Assembly (NCBI GenBank): GCA_040757115.1
Contig: JBFLYA010000037.1
Coordinates: 1 to 24,783, forward strand
Source: a bacterium
Lineage (GTDB): Bacteria > UBA9089 > CG2-30-40-21 > SBAY01
DNA: 24,783 nucleotides
Direction of reading: 5' to 3'
The translations under genes and the position numbers were made by a program. Shown piece by piece: positions 4,537 to 18,039 of the stretch; the stretch's first letter is position 1, and each line of letters opens with the position of its first letter. The notes under the pieces are model-generated. The model did no database searches, was not told the origin of the DNA, and worked only from the letters and a program-made list of their open reading frames with translations.

Positions 4537-5166
4537 ATGAGATTTGTAGAGGAAACAGGAAAAACGGCTGATGAGGCAATTGAGAAGGCATTGAAAACTT
4601 TAGGTGCGGCAAAAGAAGAGGTCAAGATTGAAGTAATGGAGGAAGAAAATAAAGGATTATTTGGTTTTGGAGCATCAAAATTGGTTAAGGTGAAGGTAAG
4701 TCTTTTTAAAAACAGTGGAATCGGCGAATTGAGTAAAGAAATATTAAGTCGGATTTTAGAATTAATGGAGATAAAAGCAGAGGTAATTATAAAAGAGACA
4801 CCGGAAATAGTCAATTTAGAAATTAAAACTGATGATGCGGCTATTCTTATTGGCAAACGAGGACAAACACTTAATGCCCTTCAAGAAATTGTTACTTTGA
4901 TATCTAATCAGAAAAGTGGCGGAGAACTCAAAAAAAGAATTGTTGTCGATACTGAAGACTACCGTATTAGACGAGCTGATGTCCTGATTGGTTTAGCCAG
5001 AAAAACGGCTCAAGATGTTATTAAAACAAGACAGAAGATTGAATTAGAACCAATGCCGTCCCAGGAACGATATGTTATTCACTCAACATTACAAAATCAT
5101 CCTCAGGTAAAAACAGAAAGCGTCGGTGAGGGAATAGAACGAAGAGTGGTAATTTTACCTAAATAA
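4537..5166 (+). CDS. jag: Jag/KhpB RNA-binding protein (Jag-N, KH and R3H domains)
   Basis: A 209-residue RNA-binding protein, also called KhpB, EloR or SpoIIIJ-associated protein. In Gram-positive bacteria it binds many transcripts and affects cell elongation. The domains are in the usual order. The Jag-N domain is residues 1-52, with the conserved LFGFG segment. A type II KH domain follows (about 75-150), with the GKRG loop at 106-109. The R3H domain is at about 150-209, with the Arg-x3-His pair at Arg178 and His182, ending EGIERRVVI. ATG 4537 follows AGGAGG (4523-4528). It is the last gene of the cluster. The mnmE and mnmG genes that often follow are absent, and the repeat at 5171 begins 4 bases after the stop. 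Confidence 0.93.
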   Translation: MRFVEETGKTADEAIEKALKTLGAAKEEVKIEVMEEENKGLFGFGASKLVKVKVSLFKNSGIGELSKEILSRILELMEIKAEVIIKETPEIVNLEIKTDDAAILIGKRGQTLNALQEIVTLISNQKSGGELKKRIVVDTEDYRIRRADVLIGLARKTAQDVIKTRQKIELEPMPSQERYVIHSTLQNHPQVKTESVGEGIERRVVILPK

Positions 5167-5170
5167 TGAG

Positions 5171-5302
5171 GTAACTATTCACCACGAAGAGCACGAAGGA
5201 CACGGAGGTGTTACAGAACAAATCTCTTTATGCCTTCTTTCAATCTTTCCACATTGAAATTTATCAATAGACCAACCTTGATATTTGCCAATTTCATATA
5301 TG
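5171..5302. mobile_element. Left end of a GTAAC-type element carrying a GxxExxY gene remnant (copy 1)
   Basis: Begins GTAACTATTCA (5171-5181), followed by 9-base words of the type CACGAAGAG/CACGAAGGA. It repeats 17908-18039 at a constant offset of 12737 bases, with the main differences at 5203-5210. After 5302 the two copies diverge completely. No matching right terminus is seen before the next gene, so the copy is truncated. It begins 4 bases after the jag stop codon. Confidence 0.7.
5211..5300 (-). pseudogene. 3' remnant of a GxxExxY-family gene (copy 1)
   Basis: Reading the minus strand gives 29 residues and a stop: [15 protein letters not shown], then [14 protein letters not shown]. The KVGLLINF core followed by IKR(F/V)VL is how GxxExxY proteins (PF13366, a PD-(D/E)XK nuclease-fold-related family) end. 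The rest of the gene, including the GxxExxY motif, is missing; upstream residues belong to unrelated repeat DNA. The same remnant with the same break point is found at 17948-18037. The family assignment rests on memory of the family C-terminus. Confidence 0.65.
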
Positions 5303-10710: not shown

Positions 10711-10795
10711 ACTGTAAAATTAACCCCTTAACAGGGATAACATATTTTTGCCTTTTCAAGAAAATAGGCAAAGAGACAAAAAGAATCTTAAAAAG

Positions 10796-10884
10796 AAAGG
10801 AGGTAGATAAAAAATGGCAAGGTCGGAAATGGAAAGGAAAAATCTTAAAAAGAAAGGAGGTGATAAAGAAATGCAAAATGCAAA
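10796..10884 (+). promoter_or_regulatory. Leader with duplicated strong Shine-Dalgarno modules (DUF11 gene 1)
   Basis: Two near-identical modules occur in series: AAAGGAGGT (10796-10804) before ATG 10814, and AAAGGAGGTGAT (10853-10864) before ATG 10871. The second matches the complement of the 16S rRNA 3' end over 12 bases, far longer than usual. Both ATGs share a frame, but here that frame stops at 10904-10906 and encodes only a 30-residue (or 11-residue) peptide. The main protein frame starts at ATG 10885. The same two-module leader precedes the paralogs, where both ATGs are in frame. Upstream of it, a block AACCCCTTA...AGGGATAA (about 10724-10741) is also shared. Confidence 0.7.
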
Positions 10885-10891
10885 ATGCAAA
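10871..10891 (+). repeat. Tandem ATGCAAA heptamers on the start codon (three copies)
   Basis: Three perfect units of ATGCAAA begin at the ATG that follows the strong Shine-Dalgarno sequence. Each unit carries an ATG in a different frame. Only the last one (10885) opens the frame of the long protein. The paralogs at 12482 and 13924 have four units (one with a substitution in the latter), which puts the first ATG in frame. Confidence 0.8.
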
Positions 10892-11877
10892 AAGGTTTCT
10901 TATTAGCTGTGCTAAGCTTAGGGCTAATGATGATTTTAGCCCCAAAGACAGCAGATGCACAAGTAGGTACCAGTGGTACTACCGCAGGCTCAGAGATTAT
11001 CAATGGTACTGATACAGGTACTATTGGTATAGCAGACCAGGCGGGAGACATTGTAGTCACCTATATGGTTGGTAGTGTAGGAAGAACCTCAACTACTGCA
11101 TCAGTGTTAACTCGTGTTGTAGAACAGATATACGGTGGAGAATGGGGTACTCTTCCTGAAAATGGGACAGATACACCGGGTGCGGCAGTAGACTATCTCT
11201 ATACACTGGAGAATAAAGGTAACGCTGCTGATACCTTTTACCTGTCACTGAATACTACTGGATTGCTAGTCGGCTGGACAGCGGAGATTCTAAAAGATGG
11301 TGTGGCGACGACTACTATTACCTTAGCTGAAGATGCAGAGGGAACATTTACGGTTAGAGTAACCATATCAGGGACGGCAGCAAATCTTGAGACAGGCGCG
11401 GTGATTGTAACTGGCACAACTACGGATGATGGTGGGACATACACAGTTGGTAATTGGATTTACGGTGGGGCAGATACTCTTACTCATCGGGGAACAACTA
11501 CTGCTTTAGCCGCTGTTGTAACCTTAACCAAGAGTATGGAGTATGCTACACCAACAGGGTATCTGGGTAATAACCGCTATGTACCAGGTGGAACGATAAC
11601 CTATATTATCACCTGCTACAATGCTGGTTCTTATACAGCAGGCTCTGTGACAATTACTGACAAGTTACCACTACATACGAGTTATGCTACGGGAACATTA
11701 AGAATGGGTACTGCAGGTGATACTTACAATACTGCTGGCACGAAGACCGATGGATATGATAACCAAGGTACTTGGGATGCTGATTGGAACGATAGTAATC
11801 AGATAGTACGATTTGAAATTGACACTATTGAGCCAGCTGAAACAGTAAAACTATACTTTAGAGTGTACATTAAGTAA
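10885..11877 (+). CDS. Secreted DUF11-type protein, paralog 1
   Basis: 330 residues. The signal peptide is MQKGFLLAVLSLGLMMILAP..ADA, with cleavage near residue 25 before QVGTSGTT. An N-terminal beta segment (27-88) ends in QIYGGEWG. A NEW3/CARDB-like sandwich follows (about 90-208), containing YLYTLENKGNAADTF and GTYTVGNWIYGG. A DUF11-like domain forms the C-terminus (about 209-330), with PGGTITYIITCYNAG, VTITDKLP and a final LYFRVYIK. It is paralogous to the genes at 12482 and 13924 but clearly diverged. DUF11 domains are common in bacterial cell-surface and extracellular-matrix proteins; no enzyme residues are seen. The start is problematic: the ATG with proper Shine-Dalgarno spacing (10871) is out of frame, and ATG 10885 lies 24 bases after the GGAGG core. 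Confidence 0.8.
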   Translation: MQKGFLLAVLSLGLMMILAPKTADAQVGTSGTTAGSEIINGTDTGTIGIADQAGDIVVTYMVGSVGRTSTTASVLTRVVEQIYGGEWGTLPENGTDTPGAAVDYLYTLENKGNAADTFYLSLNTTGLLVGWTAEILKDGVATTTITLAEDAEGTFTVRVTISGTAANLETGAVIVTGTTTDDGGTYTVGNWIYGGADTLTHRGTTTALAAVVTLTKSMEYATPTGYLGNNRYVPGGTITYIITCYNAGSYTAGSVTITDKLPLHTSYATGTLRMGTAGDTYNTAGTKTDGYDNQGTWDADWNDSNQIVRFEIDTIEPAETVKLYFRVYIK

Positions 11878-12322
11878 TTGAGAGTTAAAAGTAGATAGTT
11901 AAAAAAAAACTCATAACTTATATAACTCTATACTTGTGTCTGCTGTATGAATGGTAGAATTGTCTTCCCAAAAGGATAAAAGTGTCTAAAACTATCTTTG
12001 TGCATCAAAGGACAAATATAAAGGTAGGACTATCTCTAAGTGTAACTTTTTAGAGGCATAATTGCGACCTGTGCAGTTAAGATAAACCACGAAGGACACA
12101 AAGCCCACGAAGAAAAAATATGGTAACTATTCAGTAATTATTCCACCACAGATTAACACGGATAAATAGCAGAGGACAGAGGGCAGAAGGCAGAGGGCAG
12201 AGGACAGAGGGCAGAAGGCAGAGGGCAGAAGGCAGAGGGCAGAAGGCAGAGGGCAGAGGACAACAGGAGAAAAAACCTTTAGCCTAATTACGGACACGGA
12301 TACCGGACACGCCTCACAGATT
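11878..12322. other. Intergenic region with word-repeat debris and an isolated element end
   Basis: No ORF is supported. CACGAAGGACACAAAG-type words occur at 12090-12112, and an isolated GTAACTATTCA terminus (12123-12133) with no partner. A CCACAGATTAACACGG word (12153-12168) leads into the tandem array at 12169-12259. Bases 12283-12320 contain ACGGACACGG-type words. The first 100 bases vaguely resemble the conserved region downstream of the two tandem paralogs. Confidence 0.5.
12169..12259. repeat. Heptanucleotide minisatellite, 13 units of GCAGAGG/GCAGAAG/ACAGAGG
   Basis: Thirteen consecutive 7-base units in perfect register with no indels. Three unit types alternate (GCAGAGG, GCAGAAG, ACAGAGG). 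The 28-base higher-order order is partly repeated, which points to unequal crossing-over or slippage. It is strongly purine-biased. It lies upstream of the tandemly duplicated DUF11 gene block. Confidence 0.9.
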
Positions 12323-12403
12323 ACACACAGAGAGTAGAATGTTTATCCATTTTAACCCCTTATAAATAAAAGGGATAATATATATTTTGCCATTGTCAAA
12401 AAG

Positions 12404-12481
12404 AAAGGAGGTAGATAAAAAATGGCAATTTCAAAAAGACAAAATGGGGAAAATCTTAAAAAGAAAGGAGGTGATAAAGGA
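12404..12481 (+). promoter_or_regulatory. Leader with duplicated Shine-Dalgarno modules (DUF11 gene 2)
   Basis: AAAGGAGGT (12404-12412) precedes ATG 12422, and AAAGGAGGTGAT (12464-12475) precedes ATG 12482. Both ATGs are in frame with the protein. Use of the upstream one would add 20 lysine-rich residues before the signal peptide, so ATG 12482 is chosen. The block AACCCCTTATAAATAAAAGGGATAA-like at about 12354-12379 is conserved with the sister leaders and is palindromic at its ends. Confidence 0.65.
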
Positions 12482-13447
12482 ATGCAAAATGCAAAATGCA
12501 AAATGCAAAAAGGTTTCTCATTAGCTGTGCTAAGCTTAGGGCTGATGATGGTTTTAGCACCAGAGACAGTTAATGCACAAGTAGGGACGAGTGGGACGAC
12601 TGCAAATACACAGATACTTAACATGGCAACTGCTACCTATGTAATAGGTGGTAACACCAGAACTACCACCACGAATATCTCTATCACAGTAGGACAGATA
12701 TACGGTGGTAGCTGGACTGTCCCGGCAGATAAGGATGGTATACCCAATGGAACGGTAGAGTATATCTATATTCTAGATAACGAGGGGAATGCCGCAGATA
12801 CCTTTAACTTAACCTTAGGTACTACCAGTTTGCCAAGCGGTTGGACTGCCGAAATTCGAGTAAATGGTGTTGCGACGACTACTCTTACCTTAGCTGAAGA
12901 TGCTGTTGGCACATTTGCAGTCAGAGTATCAATATCAGCTACGGCACAAAATGGTGATAAAGGGACGGTAAGTATAACAACAACTACTACTGACGATGGT
13001 GGGACATATACGGTTGGTAATTGGATATACGGCGGGTTAGACTTGCTCAGCGACACAAGAACAACTACAGCACAGTCAGCAGTGATAACTCTGACCAAAA
13101 CTATTTATTCATACGGAACACCAACAGGATATGAAGGTAGTAACTCATATATACCAGGTGGGACGATAACTTACATGATTACCTACCGCAATGAGGGTGC
13201 AGCCACAGCAACAGATGTGACAATTACTGATATAATCCCAGCTCATACAACTTATGCTCCGGAGACAATGAGAATAGGGACTTCAGGCGCTACCTATGAA
13301 AGTGCTAATGTCGAAGATGATGATGATGGAGAATCACCACCTTGTGCAAATTGGAACATTACCACTACTGGTGCAGTAACATTTAAACTGGGTGATGTTA
13401 GACCTAATGCAGAGGGAAGATTATTCTTTAGAGTATACATCAAGTAG
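12482..13447 (+). CDS. Secreted DUF11-type protein, paralog 2
   Basis: 321 residues from ATG 12482, whose Shine-Dalgarno sequence matches the anti-SD over 12 bases. The first seven codons come from three ATGCAAA heptamers, and a fourth supplies the next Met. The signal peptide core is FSLAVLSLGLMMVLAP, cleaved near VNA-Q. The modules are as in paralog 1: an N-terminal segment ending QIYGGSW, a NEW3-like sandwich (YIYILDNEGNAADTF, TYTVGNWIYGG) and a C-terminal DUF11-like domain ending FFRVYIK. An Asp/Glu-rich loop (NVEDDDDGE) precedes SPPCANW and looks like a divalent-cation site. It differs from paralog 3 by about eight substitutions plus the loop. Likely a surface structural protein; function not known. 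Confidence 0.85.
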   Translation: MQNAKCKMQKGFSLAVLSLGLMMVLAPETVNAQVGTSGTTANTQILNMATATYVIGGNTRTTTTNISITVGQIYGGSWTVPADKDGIPNGTVEYIYILDNEGNAADTFNLTLGTTSLPSGWTAEIRVNGVATTTLTLAEDAVGTFAVRVSISATAQNGDKGTVSITTTTTDDGGTYTVGNWIYGGLDLLSDTRTTTAQSAVITLTKTIYSYGTPTGYEGSNSYIPGGTITYMITYRNEGAATATDVTITDIIPAHTTYAPETMRIGTSGATYESANVEDDDDGESPPCANWNITTTGAVTFKLGDVRPNAEGRLFFRVYIK

Positions 13448-13763: not shown

Positions 13764-13905
13764 TTACACACAAAGAGTAGAATGTTTATCCATTTAACCC
13801 CTTATAAATAAAAGGGATAATATATATTTTGCCATTGTCAAGAAGAAAGGAGGTAGATAAAAAATGGCAATTTCAAAAAAACAAAATGTAGAAAATTTTA
13901 GAAAG

Positions 13906-13923
13906 AAAGGAGGTGATAAAGAA
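13906..13923 (+). promoter_or_regulatory. Extended Shine-Dalgarno of DUF11 gene 3
   Basis: AAAGGAGGTGAT (13906-13917), 12 bases complementary to the 16S rRNA 3' end, before ATG 13924. An upstream twin (AAAGGAGGT, about 13847-13855) precedes ATG 13864 in the same frame. Using it would add 20 basic residues in front of the signal peptide. Confidence 0.7.
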
Positions 13924-14901
13924 ATGCAAAATGCAAAAAGCAAAATGCAAAAAGGTTTCTTATTAGCTGTGCTAAGCTTAGGGCTGATGATGGTTTTAGC
14001 ACCAGAGACAGTTAATGCACAAGTAGGGACGAGTGGGACGACTGCAAATACACAGATACTTAACATGGCAACTGCTACCTATGTAATAGGTGGTAACACC
14101 AGAACTACCACCACGAATATCTCTATCACAGTAGGACAGATATACGGTGGTAGCTGGACTGTCCCGGCAGATAAGGATGGTATACCCAATGGAACGGTAG
14201 AGTATATCTATACTCTAGATAACAAGGGGAATGCCGCAGATACCTTTAACTTAACCTTAGGTACTACCAGTTTGCCAAGTGGTTGGACTGCCGAAATTCG
14301 AGTAAATGGTGTTGCGACGACTACTATTACCTTAGCTGAAGATGCTGTTGGCACATTTGCAGTCAGAGTATCAATATCAGCTACGGCACAAAATGGTGAT
14401 AAAGGGACGGTAAGTATAACAACAACTACTACTGCCGATGGTGGGACATATACGGTTGGTAATTGGATATACGGTGGATTAGACTTGCTCAGCGACACAA
14501 GAACAACTACAGCACAGTCAGCAGTGATAACTCTGACCAAAACTATTTATTCATACGGAACACCAACAGGATATGGAGGTAGTAACTCATATGTACCAGG
14601 TGGGACGATAACTTACATGATTACCTACCGCAATGAGGGTGCAGCCACAGCAACAGATGTGACAATTACTGATATAATTCCAGCTCATACAACTTATGCT
14701 CCGGAGACAATGAGAATAGGGACTTCAGGCGCTACCTATGAAAGTGCTGAATATGATAAGGCTGATGATGATGATGATGGTTCAGAATCACCACCTTGTG
14801 CAAATTGGAACATTACCACTACTGGCGCAGTAACATTTAAACTGGGTGATGTTAGACCTAATGCAGAGGGAAGATTATTCTTTAGAGTATACATCAAGTA
14901 G
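13924..14901 (+). CDS. Secreted DUF11-type protein, paralog 3
   Basis: 325 residues from ATG 13924. It is the near-identical tandem copy of the gene at 12482, with the same signal peptide, NEW3-like sandwich and C-terminal DUF11-like domain. The differences cluster in an acidic loop near residue 280, where this copy has EYDKADDDDDGSE in place of NVEDDDDGE. That is a length change in a GAT-triplet run that looks like slippage. The third of its four start-region heptamers is altered (AAGCAAA instead of ATGCAAA), which removes one alternative ATG. Probably secreted and surface-associated; the exact role is not known. Confidence 0.85.
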   Translation: MQNAKSKMQKGFLLAVLSLGLMMVLAPETVNAQVGTSGTTANTQILNMATATYVIGGNTRTTTTNISITVGQIYGGSWTVPADKDGIPNGTVEYIYTLDNKGNAADTFNLTLGTTSLPSGWTAEIRVNGVATTTITLAEDAVGTFAVRVSISATAQNGDKGTVSITTTTTADGGTYTVGNWIYGGLDLLSDTRTTTAQSAVITLTKTIYSYGTPTGYGGSNSYVPGGTITYMITYRNEGAATATDVTITDIIPAHTTYAPETMRIGTSGATYESAEYDKADDDDDGSESPPCANWNITTTGAVTFKLGDVRPNAEGRLFFRVYIK

Positions 14902-17823: not shown

Positions 17824-17907
17824 AAACATTATCTACTTCAACTGATAGGAAATTGCTTTTTGAGTGTTTTGGGTATTATATCCATTTGTGCCTATTATAA
17901 AAATATT

Positions 17908-18039
17908 GTAACTATTCACCACGAAGAGCACGAAGGACACAAAGATTTTACAGAACAAATCTCTTTATGCCTTCTTTCAATCTTTCCACATTGAAATTTA
18001 TCAATAGACCAACCTTGATATTTGCCAATTTCATATATG
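17908..18039. mobile_element. Left end of a GTAAC-type element carrying a GxxExxY gene remnant (copy 2)
   Basis: Starts GTAACTATTCA (17908-17918), followed by CACGAAGAG-type words and the remnant at 17948. It matches 5171-5302 base for base except around 17940-17947. It stops where a different palindromic element begins (18042). No right GTTAC terminus follows. Confidence 0.7.
17948..18037 (-). pseudogene. 3' remnant of a GxxExxY-family gene (copy 2)
   Basis: The same 29 C-terminal codons plus TAA as at 5211-5300 ([15 protein letters not shown], then [14 protein letters not shown]). The shared break point shows that both copies derive from one truncated element. The sequence upstream of the gene remnant is foreign repeat DNA. 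Nonfunctional as it stands. Confidence 0.65.

Follow-up and report, generated by a model that had tools for sequence, protein, structure and literature searches.

The tandem ATGCAAA heptamers at the start of a gene for an exported protein (W1) raise the question whether gain or loss of a repeat unit serves there as a phase-variable switch of translation, as an earlier note on this DNA had proposed. The window, i.e. the whole stretch of DNA analysed (24,783 nucleotides), is contig 37 of a source assembly of 4.3 Mb in 462 contigs. A scan of GTDB genome contigs showed a Candidatus Desantisbacteria genome among the named relatives at the level of the order; a second strain of the source species was not found among the contigs scanned, only distant relatives. 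W1 and its paralogues W2 and W3 encode proteins with an N-terminus that reads like a signal peptide and a DUF11 domain near the C-terminus (slightly below the Pfam cut-off in W1). Their neighbours include genes for F5/8 type C, PorV/UPF0164 and TamB proteins, and an Rfam search of the window yielded no riboswitch or other RNA family. The ends of the contig (1-139 and 24165-24303) have a 139-bp sequence in common (99% identity) with ATGCAAAATGCAAA; about 15 copies of an element with this sequence occur in the genome, which is probably the reason for the contig break. A 141-bp repeat (94% identity) is located at 5162-5302 and 17899-18039 of the window.

All features of the three genes lie on the forward strand. 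The array of W1 (10871-10891) consists of three exact ATGCAAA units with ATG codons at 10871, 10878 and 10885; arrays like this one and the one of W2 (12482-12509) were absent from dinucleotide shuffles of the window. It is preceded by the Shine-Dalgarno (SD) sequence SD2, AAAGGAGGTGAT (10853-10864), which forms 13 bp with the 3' end of the 16S rRNA of the same genome, GGATCACCTCCTTTCT (-21.5 kcal/mol). The three ATG codons follow GGAGG at spacings of 10, 17 and 24 nt. The SD-proximal ATG opens an ORF of 11 aa (MQNAKCKKVSY, 10871-10906) that ends at a TAG stop (10904-10906) and overlaps the start of the W1 coding sequence (10885-11877; 330 aa, with a signal peptide and a DUF11-like C-terminus), which is in frame with the third ATG of the array alone. 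Because a TAA codon (10864-10866) closes this frame upstream, ATG 10885 is the sole start for full-length W1. The three units, the unusually strong SD before them, the out-of-frame first ATG with its 11-residue peptide and the poorly placed third ATG as the only one in frame had all been described in the earlier note, and each of these points was confirmed.

The same note had ascribed four units, with the first ATG in frame, to the two paralogues. This holds as stated for W2, whose units are exact (12482-12509; ATG 12482 and 12503 in frame); its coding sequence (12482-13447) gives 321 aa from 12482 and 341 aa from 12422. The first ATG is also in frame in W3 (13924-14901; 325 aa from 13924, 345 aa from 13864), where the array (13924-13951; ATG 13924 and 13945 in frame) reads ATGCAAA ATGCAAA AAGCAAA ATGCAAA, so that the count of four is approximate because of the degenerate third unit. 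A point missed at that time is a second strong SD followed by an ATG, 57-60 nt upstream of each array (SD1 and ATG 10814 at 10794-10816 for W1; ATG 12422 at 12402-12424 for W2 and ATG 13864 at 13844-13866 for W3). In each gene the upstream ATG shares the frame of the first ATG in the array, and in W1 it opens an ORF of 30 aa that also ends at the stop at 10904. The resulting pairs of near-perfect SD-plus-ATG modules, mutually in frame, span 10794-10873, 12402-12484 and 13844-13926. Two further repeats were observed near these genes, a GCAGAGG heptamer array of thirteen copies between W1 and W2 (12169-12262) and a short inverted repeat, AACCCCTTATAAATAAAAGGGATAA, at 12352-12378 and 13795-13820, which is kept upstream of most family members in both species compared below.

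The unit count in a related genome, which had been suggested as a check, was determined in a sister species of the same genus (G001). Its four family members near the corresponding locus carry one (the W1 orthologue), one, four and four units, compared with three, four and four in W1, W2 and W3, and both four-unit genes contain the AAGCAAA interruption seen in W3. The SD-proximal ATG is in frame in six of the seven family genes (one or four units), which are mutually related and hence not six independent observations; the exception is W1. As all six other genes have one or four units, the frame appears to matter. W1 and its orthologue show 97.6% nucleotide identity and a dN/dS of 0.23, and are unlike by two units and in the leader; the orthologue has a single SD-plus-ATG module and lacks the upstream SD1. 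The differences are found mainly within about 10780-10917, where W1 resembles W3, and W1 and W3 are exactly identical over 77 bp (10849-10925) apart from one absent unit. The 5' end of W1 thus looks like a recent product of gene conversion in which a W3-like paralogue was the presumed donor and one unit was lost; the putative tract lies at about 10780-10925. Beyond the tract, 13 of the 17 coding substitutions between W1 and its orthologue fall on third positions (p = 0.0003), which argues for selection on the W1 frame that lasted at least into the recent past. The difference of three units versus one lies inside the tract, whereas the interrupted arrays are constant at four units, the array being identical in W3 and two paralogues of the sister species at a dS of 0.17-0.26.

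Slow heptamer slippage together with gene conversion, under selection for unit numbers of 1 mod 3 and with weak translation of W1 at present, is the explanation favoured here and is considered reasonably probable. It starts from an ATG-bearing heptamer microsatellite directly downstream of a very strong SD, at the starts of tandemly arranged genes for related exported proteins. The ATG closest to the SD, 10 nt from GGAGG, would be the one that ribosomes use; initiation is known to be sensitive to SD spacing, and the optimum is narrow (PMC9841429). Of the three ATG codons only the first lies near it. The unit number modulo 3 would then set the frame of this ATG, one or four units being optimal, while two units would leave the in-frame ATG at 17 nt and three units at 24 nt. 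Genome-wide slippage would add or remove units, presumably slowly, gene conversion would exchange start regions among the paralogues, and selection would mostly hold one or four units. W1 would recently have acquired a W3-like start region with three units, most initiation there would yield the short leader peptide, and W1 itself would be weakly expressed. Its residual translation could stem from direct initiation at ATG 10885 or from backward reinitiation, as this ATG lies 19-21 nt upstream of the leader stop; post-termination ribosomes can move more than 40 nt in either direction and restart at a start codon with an SD-like sequence on its 5' side (PMC5972666). Given spacings of 10, 17 and 24 nt and the lack of a separate SD at the usual distance from ATG 10885, some translation of W1 is expected, at a low level, and the lost unit has probably lowered its output. 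Because the unit carries an ATG and at least three units always leave one in-frame ATG within the first three, the array can tune translation but cannot abolish it; the effect of a unit change is expected to be graded. As a counterpoint, the intact frame of 330 aa and the third-position bias of its divergence may reflect adequate translation from 10885, but the conversion looks too recent for the intact frame to be informative.

The slippage assumed here was compared with the repeats of both genomes, using samples of 400 kb for the repeat statistics. Period-7 arrays were the commonest tandem repeats in both (88 of 332 TRF rows in 400 kb), and about 75% of them were intergenic although ORFs cover 83%, which makes these genomes rich in mostly intergenic heptameric simple sequence repeats (SSRs). 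Most heptamer arrays compared between the two species had the same length or were 7, 14 or 49 nt apart, although some of these pairs may represent different copies of a repeated element and not orthologues. Since the lengths are mostly equal or multiples of 7 apart, whole-unit slippage is real, and since short arrays are mostly unchanged between the species, a hypermutable locus fits badly. A search for repeated k-mers in SD-plus-start regions, which covered both genomes with 400 kb each, revealed no further heptamer start arrays, and a sample of about 370 starts supported by an SD contained none, so that the start-codon array is rare within one genome. Other two-unit ATGCAAA pairs that were inspected in the genome are not gene starts and belong to one multicopy intergenic element.

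ATG heptamer arrays next to an SD were also sought by a pattern search over 19 genomes of the phylum, which is not an unbiased survey. Arrays with the first ATG in frame were found at the starts of flgH (ATGCAAA x4 in G014; ATGCGGA x4 plus ATGTAAA in G009), of genes for a PorV/UPF0164-like protein and a beta-propeller protein (G000), of an HlyD gene (G010) and of a gene for a MOSC protein (G002). A third flgH array among 16 flgH starts (G018) likewise has a well-spaced ATG in frame, and relatives differ in having a single ATG (G016 versus G014 and G009; G017 versus G018); in every one of these versions the in-frame ATG is well placed. The geometry of W1 recurs in a gene for a DUF11 protein of 470 aa (G003:C10), in which the first ATG leads to 8 residues and the third is in frame. 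Counting related genes once, the SD-proximal ATG is in frame in about seven of nine roughly independent cases, compared with one third expected (binomial chance about 0.01, or 0.02 for six of eight), the cases being few and partly related. Pattern matches in G005, G013, G018:C158 and L149-L153 were located inside genes or in non-genes and were rejected as true starts. A narrower pattern gave few matches in 367 genomes outside the phylum, none of them accepted as a clear gene start, and the SD-array motif was unmatched in viral contigs. In flgH of G009 and G014 (L131:337-480 and the start region in L129) the heptamers encode an N-terminal Met-rich stretch and, as CTGTTGT and CTGTCTA repeats, part of the signal-peptide core; microsatellites can thus build protein N-termini, here the n-region and part of the core in two genomes. 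A relative of the G000:C123 gene (G003:C381) has an AATTGGA heptamer array between the SD and the coding region (L197, near 300-360), each unit of which carries a TTG. A wider proposal, that ATG heptamer arrays behind strong SDs form a recurrent three-position setting of translation in (mostly exported-protein) genes of Desantisbacteria, with unit steps shifting expression among three levels and W1 and G003:C10 in the weakest position, is put forward only tentatively.

True translational phase variation would mean that the perfect arrays of W1 and W2 change often within a population and move a surface protein between strong and weak expression. The unit of 7 nt is not a multiple of 3, so that three and four units differ in frame and a unit change alters the start; the proteins of the family are exported, unit numbers vary between orthologues, and the lineage shows slippage by whole units. 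A second gene, G003:C10 from a related genus, resembles W1 in that its third ATG is in frame and the SD-proximal one is not. Against these points stand arrays of only three or four units, compared with 13-38 copies at the heptamer phase loci of Haemophilus influenzae (PMC2651432), an interrupted four-unit array that is stable between species, and a conversion tract that accounts for the unit number of W1. Start arrays are moreover not specific to antigens, as flgH and MOSC-domain genes bear them. Of the proposal that unit gain or loss toggles expression, the parts that stand are that the unit number picks the in-frame ATG, that whole-unit changes occur in the lineage and that the frame matters; the fast, reversible switch does not, given the short arrays, the unchanged interrupted array and a W1 state that coincides with a one-off conversion tract. 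On the evidence of sequence a phase-variable switch is possible but not the best reading, and frequent switching within the population is regarded as unlikely.

Alternatively, the arrays could be neutral by-products that drift into 5' ends and are tolerated by the n-region of the signal peptide, with W1 adequately translated from 10885 and no regulatory effect. Heptamer arrays are indeed abundant, the homologous start in other families stands directly before the signal peptide as ATG 10885 does, and the W1 frame is intact with a constrained divergence from its orthologue. This account is nevertheless judged improbable, as ATG 10885 lacks an SD at normal spacing (24 nt) and is rivalled by a perfectly served ATG, and as every other family member has its first ATG in frame. 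An assembly error between near-identical paralogues might be suspected behind the three units in a draft of this many contigs, with 77 bp common to W1 and W3; it is very unlikely, since the genome holds no other copy with exactly three units to borrow, the array is shorter than a read and the leader sequence of W1 is its own. A -1 ribosomal frameshift at CAAAAAG (10888-10894) would rescue W1 by leading ribosomes out of the leader frame, where AAA AAG (10889-10894) would allow entry into the coding frame at GGT. This is hardly credible, as the sequence departs from the classical X XXY YYZ heptamer (C instead of A), the SD is too far upstream for a stimulator and the paralogues have the same sequence without any need for it.

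Most known examples of repeat-based phase variation come from host-adapted pathogens. The W family resembles the loci of SSR phase variation in H. influenzae (lic1A, lic2A, lic3A, modA, oafA) in having a repeat near the 5' end that sets the frame, its unit length being no multiple of 3. The lic, mod and oafA loci carry tetranucleotides, about 9-13 units or more, inside or close to the ORF (PMC6479036), whereas the W family has three or four heptamers that bear the start codon. For lic2A, several functional initiation codons with potential differential expression are reported (Dixon et al. 2007, as cited in PMC3938747). The hmw1A and hmw2A loci of H. influenzae resemble the W family in the heptamer unit and the surface protein, but their 13-38 copies lie in the promoter (PMC2651432) and act on the transcript level (PMC8262952), and not at the start codon. 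The TAACTGA repeats of Beggiatoaceae and cyanobacteria are likewise genome-wide heptamers near start codons, with strains differing mostly by 7-nt steps (PMC4679880); they usually overlap the expected ribosome binding site and hold no ATG, whereas the W arrays follow a perfect SD and supply the start codon, and the sequence of the unit is not constant here, unlike in TAACTGA. In Thermus rnpA-rpmH (AUGGAUG) and in Escherichia coli (AUGUG) one SD likewise serves starts in two frames and spacing decides (PMC9841429), but these ambiguous starts are fixed sequences, in contrast to a repeat array of varying unit number. In the present case the repeat unit itself holds the start codon, the phylum is an uncultured environmental one, and similar arrays occur at unrelated gene starts; with an ATG in each heptamer, one of them is in frame whatever the unit number, so that expression would be graded and self-buffered.
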